A program made the position numbers and the translations under genes. DNA of 64,000 nucleotides from Stenotrophomonas maltophilia (GTDB lineage: Bacteria; Pseudomonadota; Gammaproteobacteria; Xanthomonadales; Xanthomonadaceae): positions 4,140,501-4,204,500 of the forward strand of contig NZ_NERD01000002.1 in NCBI RefSeq assembly GCF_002799155.1, read 5' to 3'. How positions within the stretch are numbered: the first letter of the stretch is position 1; each line of letters starts with the position of its first letter. The notes under the pieces were generated by a model. That model searched no databases. It was given only the letters and a program-made list of their open reading frames with translations, and was not told where the DNA came from. This document shows positions 38,586-44,072 of this stretch, piece by piece.

Positions 38586-39401
38586 TCAACGCCCAGTCAC
38601 GAACGGGTCGCCCTTGCATGGCAGCAACGGACTGTCATCGCACGGCCACAGGGCGGCGGGCACTGTCTTTGCCACCTCGAAGTGATCCCGGTTCCAGTGC
38701 AGGAAGCCGCCATGGACGGCATTGCCATGGTCGAAGGTGCGCGCATCCCCTGCCAGCGGCTGCTCGGGATCGGCCTCGGCCACCCAACGCAGCACCGGCA
38801 CCTTGTCCAGAACTCCGATGAAGGCGAACAGATCACCTGCGCCCTTGCCGTGGTAGGCCGCCATCGTCGCCGCGTCGGGCAGTCCGGCCTGGGCCAGCAG
38901 TGATGCAGTGACATCCTGCAGCGGTGCGGTTCCCTGCGCGACGTAGGCGCGCATGCCCGCGGTGGTTGCCGGGCAGTCCTGCAACTGCACCAGATAGCCG
39001 GTGGCGCCGGCGCTGCCGGCAAAGGAGCGGAGCCAGTACCGGAAGTGCGGCCCACCGCGATCGGTGACCATGACATCCTGCTGGCCGCCCTGCCCGGGAA
39101 TGGAGAACACCTGCACGTCGCCAGCGCCTTCCACGTTGCACTTCAGTTGCGTCAGCACCCGCTTGGCCGCTTCCGGCAATGCGCGGTAATGGCCGCCGGG
39201 GTGGGCGCTGCCCGAGGCTCCCGGCAACGCAGGCAATCCGCGTTCGGTGGGCACTGCCTGCGTGGGCAGGGCCTCCGTTTTCGGCGCCGGCTTGGCAGTC
39301 GGTGCTGCCGGCGTGGCGCGCTCTCCGGCGGGCGCGCAGGCGCTGCAGGCCAGCAGCAGCATCAACGAAACGCTCGGCATCAGGTGCGGACGGCCCCTCA
39401 T
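38586..39401 (-). CDS. Putative X-Tfi-type immunity lipoprotein
   Basis: 271 residues. A lipobox (LLLACSACAP) follows a short signal; a second start at MPSVSLMLL is possible. The mature protein has a Pro/Ala/Thr linker, then a compact domain with six cysteines (LKCNVEG, LQDCPATT, PCDDS, LPCKGD) and motifs such as FRYWLRSFAGSAGATGYLV. It begins directly after the stop of the effector gene with no spacing. Lipoproteins in this position protect against periplasmic T4SS effectors in Xanthomonas and Stenotrophomonas. Function is inferred from context; the family itself I do not recognise. Confidence 0.6.
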   Translation of the reverse strand: MRGRPHLMPSVSLMLLLACSACAPAGERATPAAPTAKPAPKTEALPTQAVPTERGLPALPGASGSAHPGGHYRALPEAAKRVLTQLKCNVEGAGDVQVFSIPGQGGQQDVMVTDRGGPHFRYWLRSFAGSAGATGYLVQLQDCPATTAGMRAYVAQGTAPLQDVTASLLAQAGLPDAATMAAYHGKGAGDLFAFIGVLDKVPVLRWVAEADPEQPLAGDARTFDHGNAVHGGFLHWNRDHFEVAKTVPAALWPCDDSPLLPCKGDPFVTGR

Positions 39402-40811
39402 TCAACGCCCTCCCATCGCCGGTGCTTCCTGCGGCTGTGCGGGCGCCGCCGCGGGTACCCCGTGCTCGCGTGATTGCTGCTGCAGCTGGCGCAGGCTGGT
39501 TTCCACCGCAGTCTCGCGCACCTCGGCCGCATCGACCCCTGCACGCAGCGCCGCGGGGTCGCCCGGGCGGCCTTGTACCAGGAACAGCGTCTCGCCCGCG
39601 GCACGGCCCGCGCTGGGGTTGCTGGCCACAATCTGGTCAACCTGGGTGATGCCCGCAGCCTTCGCTTCACGCAGCATCACCAGGCTGTAGGCATCAGCGT
39701 GTTCGGCATAGCGCCCACCCAAGGCCTGCAGGCGCGTGCTGATCTGCTGCTGCAGGGCATGATCGCGATGTTGGGGTTGGCGAGGATCGTCATTGGCCGC
39801 AAGCGGCGTGTCCTGTCCCAACCCGCGCGCCTGTCCCGGTACAACCGAGGTCAGCACGTACTGCCAACGGTTCTGCCCGGGCGTGCCGCGCACCGTCGAC
39901 ACGAAGTCATCGTACTCGCCGCCACCGATGGTCTGGCAGCCCGCCGAATCGGTGTTGGATCGGCTGCCGCGATGGATCTTGAAGGTGTCGTTGAGGTCCT
40001 GCACGCCCTGAGTATCACGCGCATCGAACCAGCCGTCGCCATTGCTGTCGCGCTCCACCCGGCCGGCGCCCGCCGTGATCGCGTCCTGCGAAGGACGCAG
40101 CGCGAACTCATCGGGATGGCCGTTGCGCGGATGGGTGGTCGCGCGCATCTCGGTGGTGCCTTCGCCCAGTCGCCCCAGGTCCTTGACCCGGTCGCCGTTG
40201 ACGTCCTCACCCTCGGTCTTGGTGCGTGGCGCCACGTTGCCGAAGCCCGGGCTGCGCGGCGTGGTCTTGGCATGACCATCGTACTGGGCGGTCGGCTCGG
40301 TCGTGGCCTGGTTGAACTCGCGCACATGGCCGTGACCCTGCGCATCCTTCCACAGCACCACGATGCGGTCGTCGTAGACACCGCGCCCGCGCGCGTCGGT
40401 CGTGCGGTTCTCGTCGCGCAATCCCAGCACCACGCGGTCCTGGGTTGCCATTGCATCGTTCGCCGCGGCGTTGCCGCGCTGGGCCACGATGCTGCCATAC
40501 ACGTCGTACTGCTGGGCCTGGCTCAGGCCCGCAGTCTCCGCAGCATCGGGCATCCGCGGCGGCCGCGCCGCCTCGCGCAGGCGATCCAGCATCGGGCCGA
40601 CCGTGGCGGCATCCGCGCCGCCGCCGCTGCGTCGCAACGCCTCGAGTTCGGTGGCAGCACGCGTCGAGATGTAGCGATCCAGCGATTCCTGCACTACCAC
40701 GCTCTGGCCGTCGTGCAGTGCCTCCAGGCGGGCGGCGGCACCGCGCGCGTCGTGCTGCCGCAACAGGGCAACGACTTCATTGGCCGCCGCGTTGATATCC
40801 ATCTCGGGCAT
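39402..40811 (-). CDS. Putative T4SS antibacterial effector (X-Tfe) with XVIPCD-like C-terminus
   Basis: 469 residues; AAGGA six bases before the ATG. Residues about 341-469 resemble the XVIPCD secretion domain: PQHRDHALQQQI, LGGRYAEHADAYSLVMLREAKAAGI, VDQIVASNPSAG, ETLFLVQGRPGDPAALRAG, then a Gln/Pro/Ala-rich tail. The preceding toxin-like region has VYDDRIVVLWKDAQGHGHV, calcium-loop-like DSNGDGWFD, and KIHRGSRSNTDSAGCQTI with His280 and Cys292, a pattern seen in peptidoglycan-acting L,D-transpeptidase-like domains. X-Tfe proteins are delivered into rival bacteria. The secretion apparatus is not in the window. The downstream lipoprotein is the likely immunity partner. Confidence 0.75.
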   Translation of the reverse strand: MPEMDINAAANEVVALLRQHDARGAAARLEALHDGQSVVVQESLDRYISTRAATELEALRRSGGGADAATVGPMLDRLREAARPPRMPDAAETAGLSQAQQYDVYGSIVAQRGNAAANDAMATQDRVVLGLRDENRTTDARGRGVYDDRIVVLWKDAQGHGHVREFNQATTEPTAQYDGHAKTTPRSPGFGNVAPRTKTEGEDVNGDRVKDLGRLGEGTTEMRATTHPRNGHPDEFALRPSQDAITAGAGRVERDSNGDGWFDARDTQGVQDLNDTFKIHRGSRSNTDSAGCQTIGGGEYDDFVSTVRGTPGQNRWQYVLTSVVPGQARGLGQDTPLAANDDPRQPQHRDHALQQQISTRLQALGGRYAEHADAYSLVMLREAKAAGITQVDQIVASNPSAGRAAGETLFLVQGRPGDPAALRAGVDAAEVRETAVETSLRQLQQQSREHGVPAAAPAQPQEAPAMGGR

Positions 40812-40927
40812 GGTCGGTCCTTGAACGTGATCATTGGAAGGTCAGCCTACCCCAGCGCCCCGGCGGGCCTTTTGACACACCGCACACCCTTGTTGCCACG
40901 CCGCATTCAAGCAGATCGCGCCCTGGC

Positions 40928-42034
40928 TCAGCCCCGTGGCCCGCCCATCACCGGCAGGATCACCCCACTGATGTAACTGGCACAGACCGGCGAGGCCAGG
41001 AACACATACGCCGGCGACAGCTCTTCGGGCTGTGCAGGCCGGCCCATGTCGCTGTCCTTGCCGAACTCGGCGACGTCCTCGGCCTGCTTGTCGGCCGGGT
41101 TCAGCGGCGTCCACACTGGCCCCGGTGCCACGCAGTTGACCCGGATGCCGCGTGGCAGCAGCTGGCTGGCCAGCGCCTTGGTGAATGCATGGATGGCGCC
41201 CTTGGTGGCCGAGTAGTCGATCAGCGCCTTGCTGCCGAAGATGCCGGTTTCCGAACCGGTGTTGATGATGCTGGCGCCCTCGCCCAGATGCGGCAGTACC
41301 GCGCGCGCCATCTGGATGTACCCACCGATGTTGGTCTGCAGGGTCTCCTGCAGGTGCGCGTCTTCCAGGTCTTCCAGCCGTTCGCAATGCAGCTGGAACG
41401 CAGCGTTGTTGACCAGGATGTCGATGCCGCCGAAGGCCTTGGCCACCTGCTTCACCGCCTTGTTGCAGAAGCGTGGGTCGCGCACGTCGCCAGCGATCAC
41501 CACGCAGCGGCCGCCTTCGCGCTCCACGTGCTGGCGGGTGATGTCCGCGTCTTCGGCCTCGTCCAGGTGCAGCACTGCCACATCGGCGCCTTCGCGTGCG
41601 AACAGCACCGCCACCGCACGGCCAATGCCGGAATCGCCACCGGTGACGATCGCGCGCATGCCCTGCAGCTTGCCGCTGCCGGCGTAGTCCGGTGCAAGGA
41701 AACGCGGCGCCAGCTCCAGTTCGTGCTCATGCCCGGGCTTGGCCAGCTGCTGCGCCGGCATCGCTTCCGGTTGCCGGCGTGCACCGGCCTGGGTCGCGGT
41801 CTTCCTTGTGGCCTTTTTCGCTGCACGCACGTCCTTGGCTTTTTCCTGGTCCTGCAGGCGCCGCTGCCGGGCCGCAACGCGGGCGGCACGGGGATCGCTG
41901 GCCGCCGCCTTGCGGGTTGCGGTCTTCACCACACGCGGGCGAGCGGAGTCGGCAGCGGTCTTCGCCGCGGTGCTGCCTTTGCGCACCTTGGGCGAGGCCT
42001 TGCGGCGGGCGGGGGTCTTCTTGCTGGTGGCCAT
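40928..42034 (-). CDS. Short-chain dehydrogenase with histone H1-like N-terminal tail
   Basis: 368 residues from the ATG at 42034, with GGGAGGAG upstream. Residues 1-90 are Lys/Arg/Ala-rich (KKTPARRKASPKVRKG, RAAKKATRKTATQAGARR), like AlgP or histone H1 tails. The SDR core starts near residue 118: TGGDSGIG (131-138) binds NAD(P), NNAAFQL follows, and YSATKGA holds the catalytic Tyr-Lys pair. The core resembles the YghA/stress-associated SDR group. The tail could bind DNA, RNA or polyphosphate. Substrate unknown. Confidence 0.85.
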   Translation of the reverse strand: MATSKKTPARRKASPKVRKGSTAAKTAADSARPRVVKTATRKAAASDPRAARVAARQRRLQDQEKAKDVRAAKKATRKTATQAGARRQPEAMPAQQLAKPGHEHELELAPRFLAPDYAGSGKLQGMRAIVTGGDSGIGRAVAVLFAREGADVAVLHLDEAEDADITRQHVEREGGRCVVIAGDVRDPRFCNKAVKQVAKAFGGIDILVNNAAFQLHCERLEDLEDAHLQETLQTNIGGYIQMARAVLPHLGEGASIINTGSETGIFGSKALIDYSATKGAIHAFTKALASQLLPRGIRVNCVAPGPVWTPLNPADKQAEDVAEFGKDSDMGRPAQPEELSPAYVFLASPVCASYISGVILPVMGGPRG

Positions 42035-42062
42035 GCAGGTCTCCTCGGGAGGGAAAGGGGCT

Positions 42063-42084
42063 GCCGGCCAGCGGCCGGCACTAC
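42063..42084 (-). repeat. SMAG repeat
   Basis: GCCGGCCAGCGGCCGGC stem followed by ACTAC, lying 29 bp upstream of the SDR start. No promoter can be recognised with confidence nearby. Confidence 0.65.
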
Positions 42085-42229
42085 CGGGGGCGGCGCATGC
42101 CGCTCCTTCAGTGTCTCCACCCAGGCTGTCGGCGGCGGTGAGCGCACCGTGTCCACGATGTGCACGGTATTCATTCCGCCACCACGCGCGCCGTCGCACG
42201 CTGCACCCAACCCCACAAGGAACGCCTCC

Positions 42230-42538
42230 ATGAAACATGCCATCGCCACCGCCGCCGTCTGTCTCGCCCTCGCCGCCTGCAGCAGCACGCCGATGGCCCA
42301 GGTGCAGCCGATCGACGGCGTGATCTCCGGCCAGTGCCACAGCGACATGGTGCGCGGCGCAGTCGGCCTGGCTGCCTCGGACGCCACCGTGGCCCGCGCA
42401 CGCGTGGACAGCGACAGCCTGCAGGTACGGGTACTGCGCCACGACGGTCCGCGGGTGCCGCCGGCCAGCGAAGGCGGCGACCGCCTGACCATCGAAAAGG
42501 GCCGCACCAACAACATCACCGCGATCTACTGCGGCTGA
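42230..42538 (+). CDS. I78-like inhibitor lipoprotein, copy 2
   Basis: 102 residues; ATG at 42230 with AAGGA upstream. Lipobox CLALAACSS. The mature region (GQCHSDMVRGAVGLAASDATVARARVDSDSLQVRVLRHDGP, then RTNNITAIYCG) has the two-cysteine frame and V-R-V core of I78-like proteins, but the central PGD-type segment is altered, so it is a divergent member. Its 3' end overlaps the topoisomerase gene tail-to-tail by 23 bp. Confidence 0.65.
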   Translation: MKHAIATAAVCLALAACSSTPMAQVQPIDGVISGQCHSDMVRGAVGLAASDATVARARVDSDSLQVRVLRHDGPRVPPASEGGDRLTIEKGRTNNITAIYCG

Positions 42539-43571
42539 GCCTGCGCGCCCTGCGCAGCACGCGCAGGGTGGCCTGTTCCCACTGGCGCGGCCCGCGCAGG
42601 CCGGCCAGCTTCGCCAGTTCGCCGCGCTCCCAGCCGGCGAACACGCACGGGTCGATGTAGGCCTTGCGGCACACCGCCGGGGTATTTCCCAACAGCGACG
42701 CCACCTCGCACACCACCGCGCGCTGCGCCTGGGCCAGGGCGCGCTGGCTGGCCGGTTCCGGCAGCTCAGTAGCCGCGAACGCCTGCACCGCCGCCACGGT
42801 CCCGCCCCAGGTGCGGAAGTCCTTGGCGGTGAAGTCCTCGCCCATCACCTCACGCAGGTAGTCGTTCACCGCGCCGGAGTCGACCGGCTGCAGCGCACCG
42901 TCGTCATCGCGATACTGGAACAGCGCCTGCCCGGGCAGCTGCTGCAGGCGCCGCACCAGCATCCCCAGCCTGCGATCGCCTACGGTCACCTCCTGCAGCT
43001 GCCCGGACTTGCCGCGGAAGCGCATGCGTACCCGGCCACCGCGCAGCAGTTCCAGGTGACGGTTGCGCAGTGTGGTCAGTCCGAACGAACGGTTCTGCTG
43101 GGCGTAGGTTTCATTGCCCACCCGCACCAGCGTGTCCGCCAGCAGCGCGACCACCATGGCCAGCACCTTCTCCTGCGGAAACCCGGGTCGTTTGAGATCC
43201 CGTGACAACCGCCGCCGCAACGTAGGCAGGGCCTCGCCAAACGCAATGATGCGGTCGAACTTGCCGGCGTCGCGCTCCTTCGCCCAATCGGCGTGGTAGC
43301 GGTACTGCTTGCGCCCGCGGGCATCGCGGCCGGTAGCCTGCAGGTGGCCGTTGGCGTGGGCACAGATCCACACCGCGGTGTAGGCCGGTGGGATTGCCAG
43401 CGCGCGGATCCGCTGCAGGGTCGCGGCATCGCGAACCGCGTGGCCATCGGCATCGCGGTAGCTGAAACCCTTGCCGGCGCGGCGGCGGCTGATGCCCGGT
43501 TGAGTGTCGTCGACATAGCGCAGGCCCGCAGCGCGCGCGGCCTGTCGTTCGGGGGTGGAGGGGGTTGGCAT
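42516..43571 (-). CDS. DNA topoisomerase IB (poxvirus/bacterial type)
   Basis: 351 residues from the ATG at 43571. Family segments are all present: GLRYVDDTQPGISRRRAGKGFSY, IPPAYTAVWICAHANGHLQATGRDARGRKQYRYH, RVGNETYAQQNRSFGLTTLRNRH, FRGKSGQ and FTAKDFRTWGGT. The catalytic tyrosine is in RKAYIDP (Tyr305). It relaxes supercoils by a 3'-phosphotyrosyl intermediate and is a scattered gene among bacteria. The open frame extends upstream but sequence similarity begins here. Confidence 0.92.
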   Translation of the reverse strand: MPTPSTPERQAARAAGLRYVDDTQPGISRRRAGKGFSYRDADGHAVRDAATLQRIRALAIPPAYTAVWICAHANGHLQATGRDARGRKQYRYHADWAKERDAGKFDRIIAFGEALPTLRRRLSRDLKRPGFPQEKVLAMVVALLADTLVRVGNETYAQQNRSFGLTTLRNRHLELLRGGRVRMRFRGKSGQLQEVTVGDRRLGMLVRRLQQLPGQALFQYRDDDGALQPVDSGAVNDYLREVMGEDFTAKDFRTWGGTVAAVQAFAATELPEPASQRALAQAQRAVVCEVASLLGNTPAVCRKAYIDPCVFAGWERGELAKLAGLRGPRQWEQATLRVLRRARRLSRSRSR

Positions 43572-43682
43572 GCGCGCAGTGTCGCTGCCGTGCTGCCGCG
43601 ATCCTGTCGATAACACAAGACAAACACGTGAGGATCGGTTCGCCGCTATGCTCGGGTTTTCACAATCCCTTCCGGAGTCATG

Positions 43683-44072
43683 ATGTCGTTCCCGATTCGC
43701 GCCCGTTCGCTCTCCGCCCTGCTGCTGCCGGCCGTGCTGGCCCTGACCGCCTGCCAGGCGCCGGCGCTGGATGAACAGGATTCGGCCACGGCCCGCGCCC
43801 AGCAGGCCGCCGAGGCAGCCAAGGCGCCGGCCGACGAAGCCGGCAAGGCCACCGAGGCACCGCCGGTCGGCACCTGCGATGCCAGCCAGGTGCAGAGCCT
43901 GGTCGGCCAGGCCTACGCCGACGCACTGGGCAAGCAGGCGCAGGAAGATGCCGGTGCCCACCAGCTGCGTGTCCTGAAGCCCAATGACGTCGCCACGATG
44001 GAGTTCCTCGGCGACCGCCTGAACATCGAAGTGGACGACAAGGGCCTGGTCAGCGGCGTGCGCTGCGGCTGA
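43683..44072 (+). CDS. I78-family peptidase inhibitor lipoprotein, copy 3
   Basis: 129 residues. Tandem ATGs occur at 43680 and 43683; the GGAG at 43674-43677 is better spaced for the second. Lipobox VLALTACQA. A helical Ala/Glu linker precedes the inhibitor domain CDASQVQSLVGQAYADALGKQAQEDAGAHQLRVLKPNDVATMEFLGDRLNIEVDDKGLVSGVRCG, a textbook I78 sequence with paired cysteines. Members inhibit serine proteases. A strong terminator follows. The gene diverges from topoisomerase IB. Confidence 0.88.
   Translation: MSFPIRARSLSALLLPAVLALTACQAPALDEQDSATARAQQAAEAAKAPADEAGKATEAPPVGTCDASQVQSLVGQAYADALGKQAQEDAGAHQLRVLKPNDVATMEFLGDRLNIEVDDKGLVSGVRCG

Follow-up and report, generated by a model that had tools for sequence, protein, structure and literature searches.

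The 64-kb stretch of DNA analysed here, hereafter the window, is a segment of a Stenotrophomonas chromosome, the closest named relatives being S. geniculata and S. maltophilia (97%). On its reverse strand lies a gene for a short-chain dehydrogenase/reductase (SDR) in which a 98-residue arm rich in lysine, arginine and alanine precedes the enzyme core (Table 1). The neighbouring ORF encodes DNA topoisomerase IB, the true start of which probably lies inside that ORF. The topoisomerase gene has a gene of the I78 peptidase-inhibitor type on each side, both coding for small, secreted-looking proteins, at 43680-44072 (+; 70.7 bits) and at 42230-42541 (+; 17.7 bits, below the cut-off of 23.6). Downstream of the SDR, at 39402-40811 (-), lies an XVIPCD-domain effector of type IV secretion (PF20410, 80.6 bits, cut-off 24.9). 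It is followed by an ORF at 38586-39401 (-) with no Pfam match and, by eye, a lipoprotein-signal-like start, which is a candidate immunity protein of an interbacterial killing system. No sigma-70-like site was found in 40750-43700.

Table 1. Features of the arm-bearing SDR locus; positions are those of the window.
Feature	Position	Strand	Basis and remarks
Arm-bearing SDR coding sequence	40928..42034	(-)	368 aa + stop; ATG at 42034
Shine-Dalgarno AGGAG	42041..42045	(-)	6 nt before ATG at 42034
Residues 1-47, K/R/A-rich, predicted disordered, net +12	41894..42034	(-)	AlphaFold2 pLDDT 48-66 by ten-residue blocks; charge count
Residues 48-70, predicted arm helix with conserved QRxLQ, net +5	41825..41893	(-)	AlphaFold2; motif kept in arm orthologues
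Residues 35-70, constrained arm block	41825..41932	(-)	dN/dS 0.097 vs core 0.091, n=50
Residues 71-98, tether with QAGxRxxP motif	41741..41824	(-)	Confident next to core from about residue 81
Residues 99-368, classical SDR core	40931..41740	(-)	PF13561; TGGDSGIG, N235, S261, Y274, K278
Neighbour ORF with DNA topoisomerase IB	42516..43961	(-)	PF01028 + PF21338 on 42516-43430

The core belongs to the YghA-type SDRs and is complete. NF005214 (PRK06701, SDR family oxidoreductase) matches residues 84-365 and scores 436.6 bits (cut-off 413), the alignment spanning positions 7-288 of the 293 in the model and thus practically all of it, and PF13561 matches residues 134-365. The preliminary description, made from the sequence alone, had placed a complete SDR core behind a basic tail, and these matches bear it out. 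The nucleotide-binding TGxxxGxG motif and the active-site N, S, Y and K are all present: across 116 sequences G132, G136, G138, N235, S261 and Y274 are invariant, and T131 and K278 nearly so. We take N235, S261, Y274 and K278 to be the catalytic residues, and the glycines and threonine of the TGxxxGxG motif to have the nucleotide-binding role. The best solved relatives are 3i3o/3ijr of Bacillus anthracis, 5jyd of Burkholderia cenocepacia and 3r3s, the Salmonella YghA. A Foldseek search returned the same best entries as the sequence search, with 3ijr at a TM score of 0.94 by target length and 47% identity. These proteins share with ours the whole core, residues ~84-365, in both sequence and predicted fold. 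In contrast, their solved chains align only from residue 91-92, so that relative to known YghA-type SDRs everything before residue ~84 is extra sequence, and neither these chains nor NF005214 cover the helix and the basic tail. Within the genus, 29 of 91 genomes hold one or more SDR relatives of 41-48% identity (E<=1e-60) whose alignments begin no earlier than residue 68. In the window's own genome, no second SDR relative exceeds 35%.

The chemistry can be approached through Escherichia coli YghA, which reduces furfural with NADH at an apparent Km of 0.03 mM according to a review (PMC10612203). yghA is also among 13 genes whose joint deletion lowered aldehyde reduction by 90-99% (PMC9133326). 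Carbonyl detoxification is therefore the likely activity of the arm-bearing SDR, by homology only.

Searches with the protein place the arm in a wide but coherent set of orthologues. In the genus, 77 of 91 genomes have a match at E<=1e-60 and 14 have none. All but two of these matches begin at or before residue 40 and so extend into the arm, one of the others being a core fragment (G028) and the other only a 47% relative (G067), so that the tail said to be worth seeking in orthologues is indeed reached by matches in 75 of the 91 genomes. A wider tblastn search gave 211 places with 187 distinct cores, rows with core identity below 38% or alignments under 200 residues being dropped. We assigned 152 of these to the arm group, on the strength of an open upstream frame, the helix motif and a start codon; the motif pattern, which defines the group here, was written after inspecting the sequences. 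The other 35 cores are arm-less, 33 being devoid of the motif and two having a chance match to it but no start. The two sets separate by core identity to the window protein, the lowest arm row standing at 58.5% and the highest no-arm row at 56.9%, and ten further relatives at 50-55% identity are all arm-less. We then labelled a core tree of 155 rows (120 arm, 35 no-arm), from which 32 near-identical arm rows with more than 92% core identity, the window's included, had been left out, L030 and L046 standing in for them. On this tree, built by a quick method with its root not inferred and some no-arm rows on long branches, the arm label needs one change as against 31.6 in shuffles (SH-aLRT 94). 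As far as the core sequences tell, the arm-bearing SDRs thus form one group. Carriers include Lysobacter, Luteimonas, Pseudoxanthomonas, Xanthomonas, Tahibacter, Variovorax, Ramlibacter, Xenophilus, Comamonas, Sinorhizobium and Pseudochrobactrum. Two further families with arm orthologues, f201 and f208, belong to another class; we take them to be sphingomonads and rhizobia.

Residues 1-91 of the window protein contain 13 lysines, 15 arginines and 24 alanines, with a net charge of +22, while residues 92-368 carry -9. Among 10,663 other segments of 91 residues without a stop, drawn from the window (six frames, sampled every fifth residue, the arm's own frame excluded), a net charge of at least +22 recurs in 261, but at least 13 lysines in none. 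It is therefore the lysines that are unusual, and not positive charge alone, which is found elsewhere in this GC-rich DNA. Comparison of the arm with Pfam at E values up to 10 gave a best value of 0.37, with all matches below the cut-offs. A search of the window's own genome revealed no second copy of the arm, the one match being at chance level (E 3.26). We found no description of the arm in the open-access literature, which was the scope of the search.

A trivial explanation would be that the protein begins near the core and that the arm is an untranslated upstream sequence annotated by mistake. In its favour, 111 of 118 rows have alternative in-frame start codons in the stretch separating helix from core. 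However, 107 of the 118 lack an alternative start backed by a Shine-Dalgarno match of at least five bases. In the window the first ATG, at 42034, has AGGAG 6 nt upstream, whereas upstream of the in-frame ATG at residue 92 even a four-base Shine-Dalgarno match is missing; a better-supported start near 41700, as the preliminary description had thought conceivable, was sought and not found. Substitution patterns in 50 Stenotrophomonas-like sequences with core identity of at least 85% also speak against it: dN/dS is 0.23 over residues 1-91, 0.48 over 1-34, 0.097 over 35-70 and 0.16 over 71-91, compared with 0.091 for the core. By this measure the arm is under purifying selection, and block 35-70 is as constrained as the enzyme itself, so that the most conserved part of the arm is the helix block and not the N-terminal tail. 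Finally, S. meliloti has an arm orthologue, SMa0187, with 62.9% core identity, and the 39-base SMa0187 promoter given in PMC6180224 sits on pSymA directly before the ORF starting MKSETGQKQRDIQKQ. The transcription start, mapped there by RNA-seq and 5'-RACE, falls 19 nt before the arm's ATG. Given the ribosome-binding site, the presence of the arm in orthologues, the selection and this transcript, we reject the artefact and assign it a practically negligible probability. The basic tail is real and translated, as had been surmised.

AlphaFold2, run with a 116-row alignment, predicts residues 1-47 of the window protein to be disordered, a helix at 48-70 (mean pLDDT 91 over residues 51-60 and 82 over 61-70) and confident structure from about residue 81. 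The same method applied to an f201 orthologue with an acidic arm gives no tail: a helix spans residues 3-24, a weak linker occupies 28-34, and then comes the ordered core. For the alignments A1 and A2, automatic starts that fell too late (L052, L131, L135, L072 and L047) were corrected by hand. Charge was counted in 147 of the 152 arm rows, the five with picked starts of fewer than 45 residues being left out. The median net charge of the arm is +21 in the 52 rows whose core identity is 82% or higher, none of which is at or below zero; +12 in the 80 rows at 66-82%, with three at or below zero; and +2 in the 15 rows under 66%, with seven at or below zero. Thus, down to a core identity of 66%, the arm is positively charged in 129 of 132 rows, and over the whole set it is neutral or acidic in 10 of 147, seven of them among the 15 most distant; the helix motif is present in these as well. 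A compensation between the charges of arm and core was considered and rejected (Pearson -0.03 over 147 rows). Going by this spread, the lysine-rich part of the arm is a lineage feature, and since 10 of 147 rows are neutral or acidic, polyanion binding is unlikely to be a shared, older job of the arm. An acidic-arm orthologue keeps helix and tether while charge varies among rows, and we therefore infer that helix and tether are the older element, to which a lysine-rich tail would have been added, or in which it would have been enlarged, in the Lysobacterales and to a lesser degree in the Comamonadaceae.

Direct evidence on regulation comes from S. meliloti. In PMC6180224, SMa0187, given there only as 'Short-chain dehydrogenase', rises by a log2 change of 3.3 upon overexpression of RpoE2, the general stress sigma factor of this bacterium, and by 2.5 upon that of RpoE6. 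A scan for EcfG promoters was dropped as evidence of general-stress control: the canonical motif lies upstream of one in 14 arm orthologues taken as alphaproteobacterial, and a relaxed pattern of two in 14. As the mapped S. meliloti promoter has no GGAAC, such a scan is a poor test of this control. An EcfG-like GGAAC-N-GTT motif within 300 bases upstream was also observed in 5 of 32 arm-less YghA relatives (L174, L185, L189, L190 and L192) as against 2 of 152 arm orthologues. The orthologue of Pseudochrobactrum algeriensis stands amid CsbD genes, otsA/otsB and genes for an SOS-response-associated peptidase, a 'general stress protein' and a ferritin-like protein. No stress island was seen around the S. 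meliloti LMB1 and Comamonas genes, which account for two of the three annotated plasmid neighbourhoods and have incomplete gene tables. By extension, the Stenotrophomonas gene may be stress-regulated too.

The topoisomerase IB gene of the window is part of a recurrent association. Among the neighbour clusters listed for 62 arm loci are topoisomerase IB (15), LigD (11), Ku (9), BON protein (9), I78 inhibitor (7), penicillinase repressor (6) and PLD-like protein (6). The list holds 22 clusters, several of them shadow frames or without an assigned identity, and one representative of each named cluster was confirmed with Pfam. Of the 80 arm genomes searched (out of 92), 73 have Ku and 71 have topoisomerase IB. 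Topoisomerase IB lies within 10 kb of the arm-SDR in 15 of the 71, where random placement would give 0.45, and Ku in 11 of the 73, where it would give 0.47; binomial p-values for such proximity come out too small because of shared ancestry. In the present genome only topoisomerase IB is close, Ku being ~49 kb from the arm-SDR. Ku may also have an arm-less relative nearby, the two being within 10 kb of each other in 3 of 10 genomes. One arm-less relative (G334, C5, 271578-273166, partly in L223) adjoins a divergent Ku gene, and the SDR-Ku neighbourhood therefore does not need the arm; it seems to go with stress islands or with the SDR family at large. The DNA-repair neighbourhood thus looks like a property of a wider family of stress SDRs. 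Within the family, Ku is present in 49 of 55 arm genomes from outside the genus versus 37 of 80 arm-less genomes, G449, one of the 11 arm-less genomes with a near SDR, being absent from the Ku search. By eye, Ku is no commoner with the arm in any of the ten genera in which both arm and arm-less genomes occur. We accordingly treat this co-occurrence as phylogeny and not as a functional link.

Classical SDRs are tetramers. If this enzyme is one too, each particle would bear four polycationic arms, since a disordered K/R/A-rich tail extends or enriches the arm in many Lysobacterales, Stenotrophomonas among them, and to a weaker degree in Comamonadaceae. Such arms would most likely bind a polyanion, DNA first of all, and hold a carbonyl-reducing enzyme at the nucleoid when cells are stressed or not growing, at the very place where reactive carbonyls would harm DNA. 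In this proposal we infer the quaternary structure, the polyanion binding and the cell location, and take the substrate class from E. coli YghA. The topoisomerase IB, Ku and LigD neighbours and the general-stress regulation of SMa0187 are compatible with a putative role at the nucleoid, although Ku linkage occurs with arm-less relatives too. That an oligomer with polycationic arms binds DNA or another polyanion and so keeps carbonyl reduction at the nucleoid under stress is our leading reading, which we hold tentatively and somewhat short of probable. A bolder form of it, in which the multi-armed particles crosslink or coat DNA in stressed or dry cells and remove reactive aldehydes before these attack it, beside topoisomerase IB and Ku-LigD end joining, the helix being an older docking module for a shared stress partner, seems to us unlikely.

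The strongest rival holds that helix and tether are a docking or assembly element, the helix packing on the SDR core of the same or an adjacent subunit or on a protein partner, while the basic tail is a lineage decoration serving solubility or partner binding, with no nucleic acid involved. What arm orthologues share is the helix motif and, in most rows seen, a QAG-type tether, and not charge, which goes down to -8 in a distant orthologue; the drift of residues 1-34, beside a helix block held like the core, points the same way. However, this account does not explain why the arm is basic in nearly all of the nearer rows, or why its lysines stand so far above the other frames of the window, and we find it doubtful. 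The tail might instead bind polyphosphate (or RNA) and place the reductase on polyphosphate granules during starvation. A precedent is AlgP, a protein with a lysine-rich disordered tail of KPAA repeats, which associates with such granules (PMC9239181), and the SDR arm is likewise rich in lysine and alanine. Yet it has no KPAA, the words 'dehydrogenase' and 'oxidoreductase' occur zero times in the main text of that paper, and none of the nine neighbour representatives scanned is a polyphosphate gene, which together make this reading improbable. A last alternative is that the tail acts as a hydrophilin- or LEA-like desiccation shield that maintains the solubility of the enzyme or of what surrounds it during drying and has no specific ligand. 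The predicted disorder, the one stress island with trehalose genes and the RpoE2 regulation of one orthologue would suit such a function. A conserved and constrained helix block is unexpected in a purely compositional shield, and we consider this very improbable.

Returning to the arm as a putative polyanion-binding appendage, we see an ordinary stress SDR core joined to an arm of helix and tether that the curated family match does not reach. This arm is spread across several proteobacterial classes and in one large lineage became strongly polycationic. If the arm binds DNA, a metabolic enzyme would sit on the nucleoid and detoxify carbonyls at the site of damage, linking redox detoxification to DNA protection in dry or starved bacteria.

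Basic disordered tails on oligomeric stress proteins are familiar from the N-terminus of Dps and the lysine-rich C-termini of Ku, both of which bind DNA. Those proteins have unrelated folds, whereas here the carrier is a redox enzyme and the binding is putative only. Closer to home, SMa0187 has the same arm plan as the Stenotrophomonas SDR, with the helix motif and a QAGARRYP tether, but its arm is short and without the long lysine-rich tail. The arm had also been likened to AlgP and the C-termini of histone H1, and in composition, rich in lysine and alanine, the likeness stands; the absence of a KPAA array and the constrained block with its predicted 23-residue helix lead us to reject a plain low-complexity tail of that type. 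AlgP and PhaF (PMC9239181) resemble our protein in having a lysine- and alanine-rich disordered region attached to another domain, with polyanion binding proposed. Their tails are C-terminal with tandem KPAA repeats, whereas the SDR arm is N-terminal, free of KPAA and shorter, holds a conserved helix and is joined to an enzyme.
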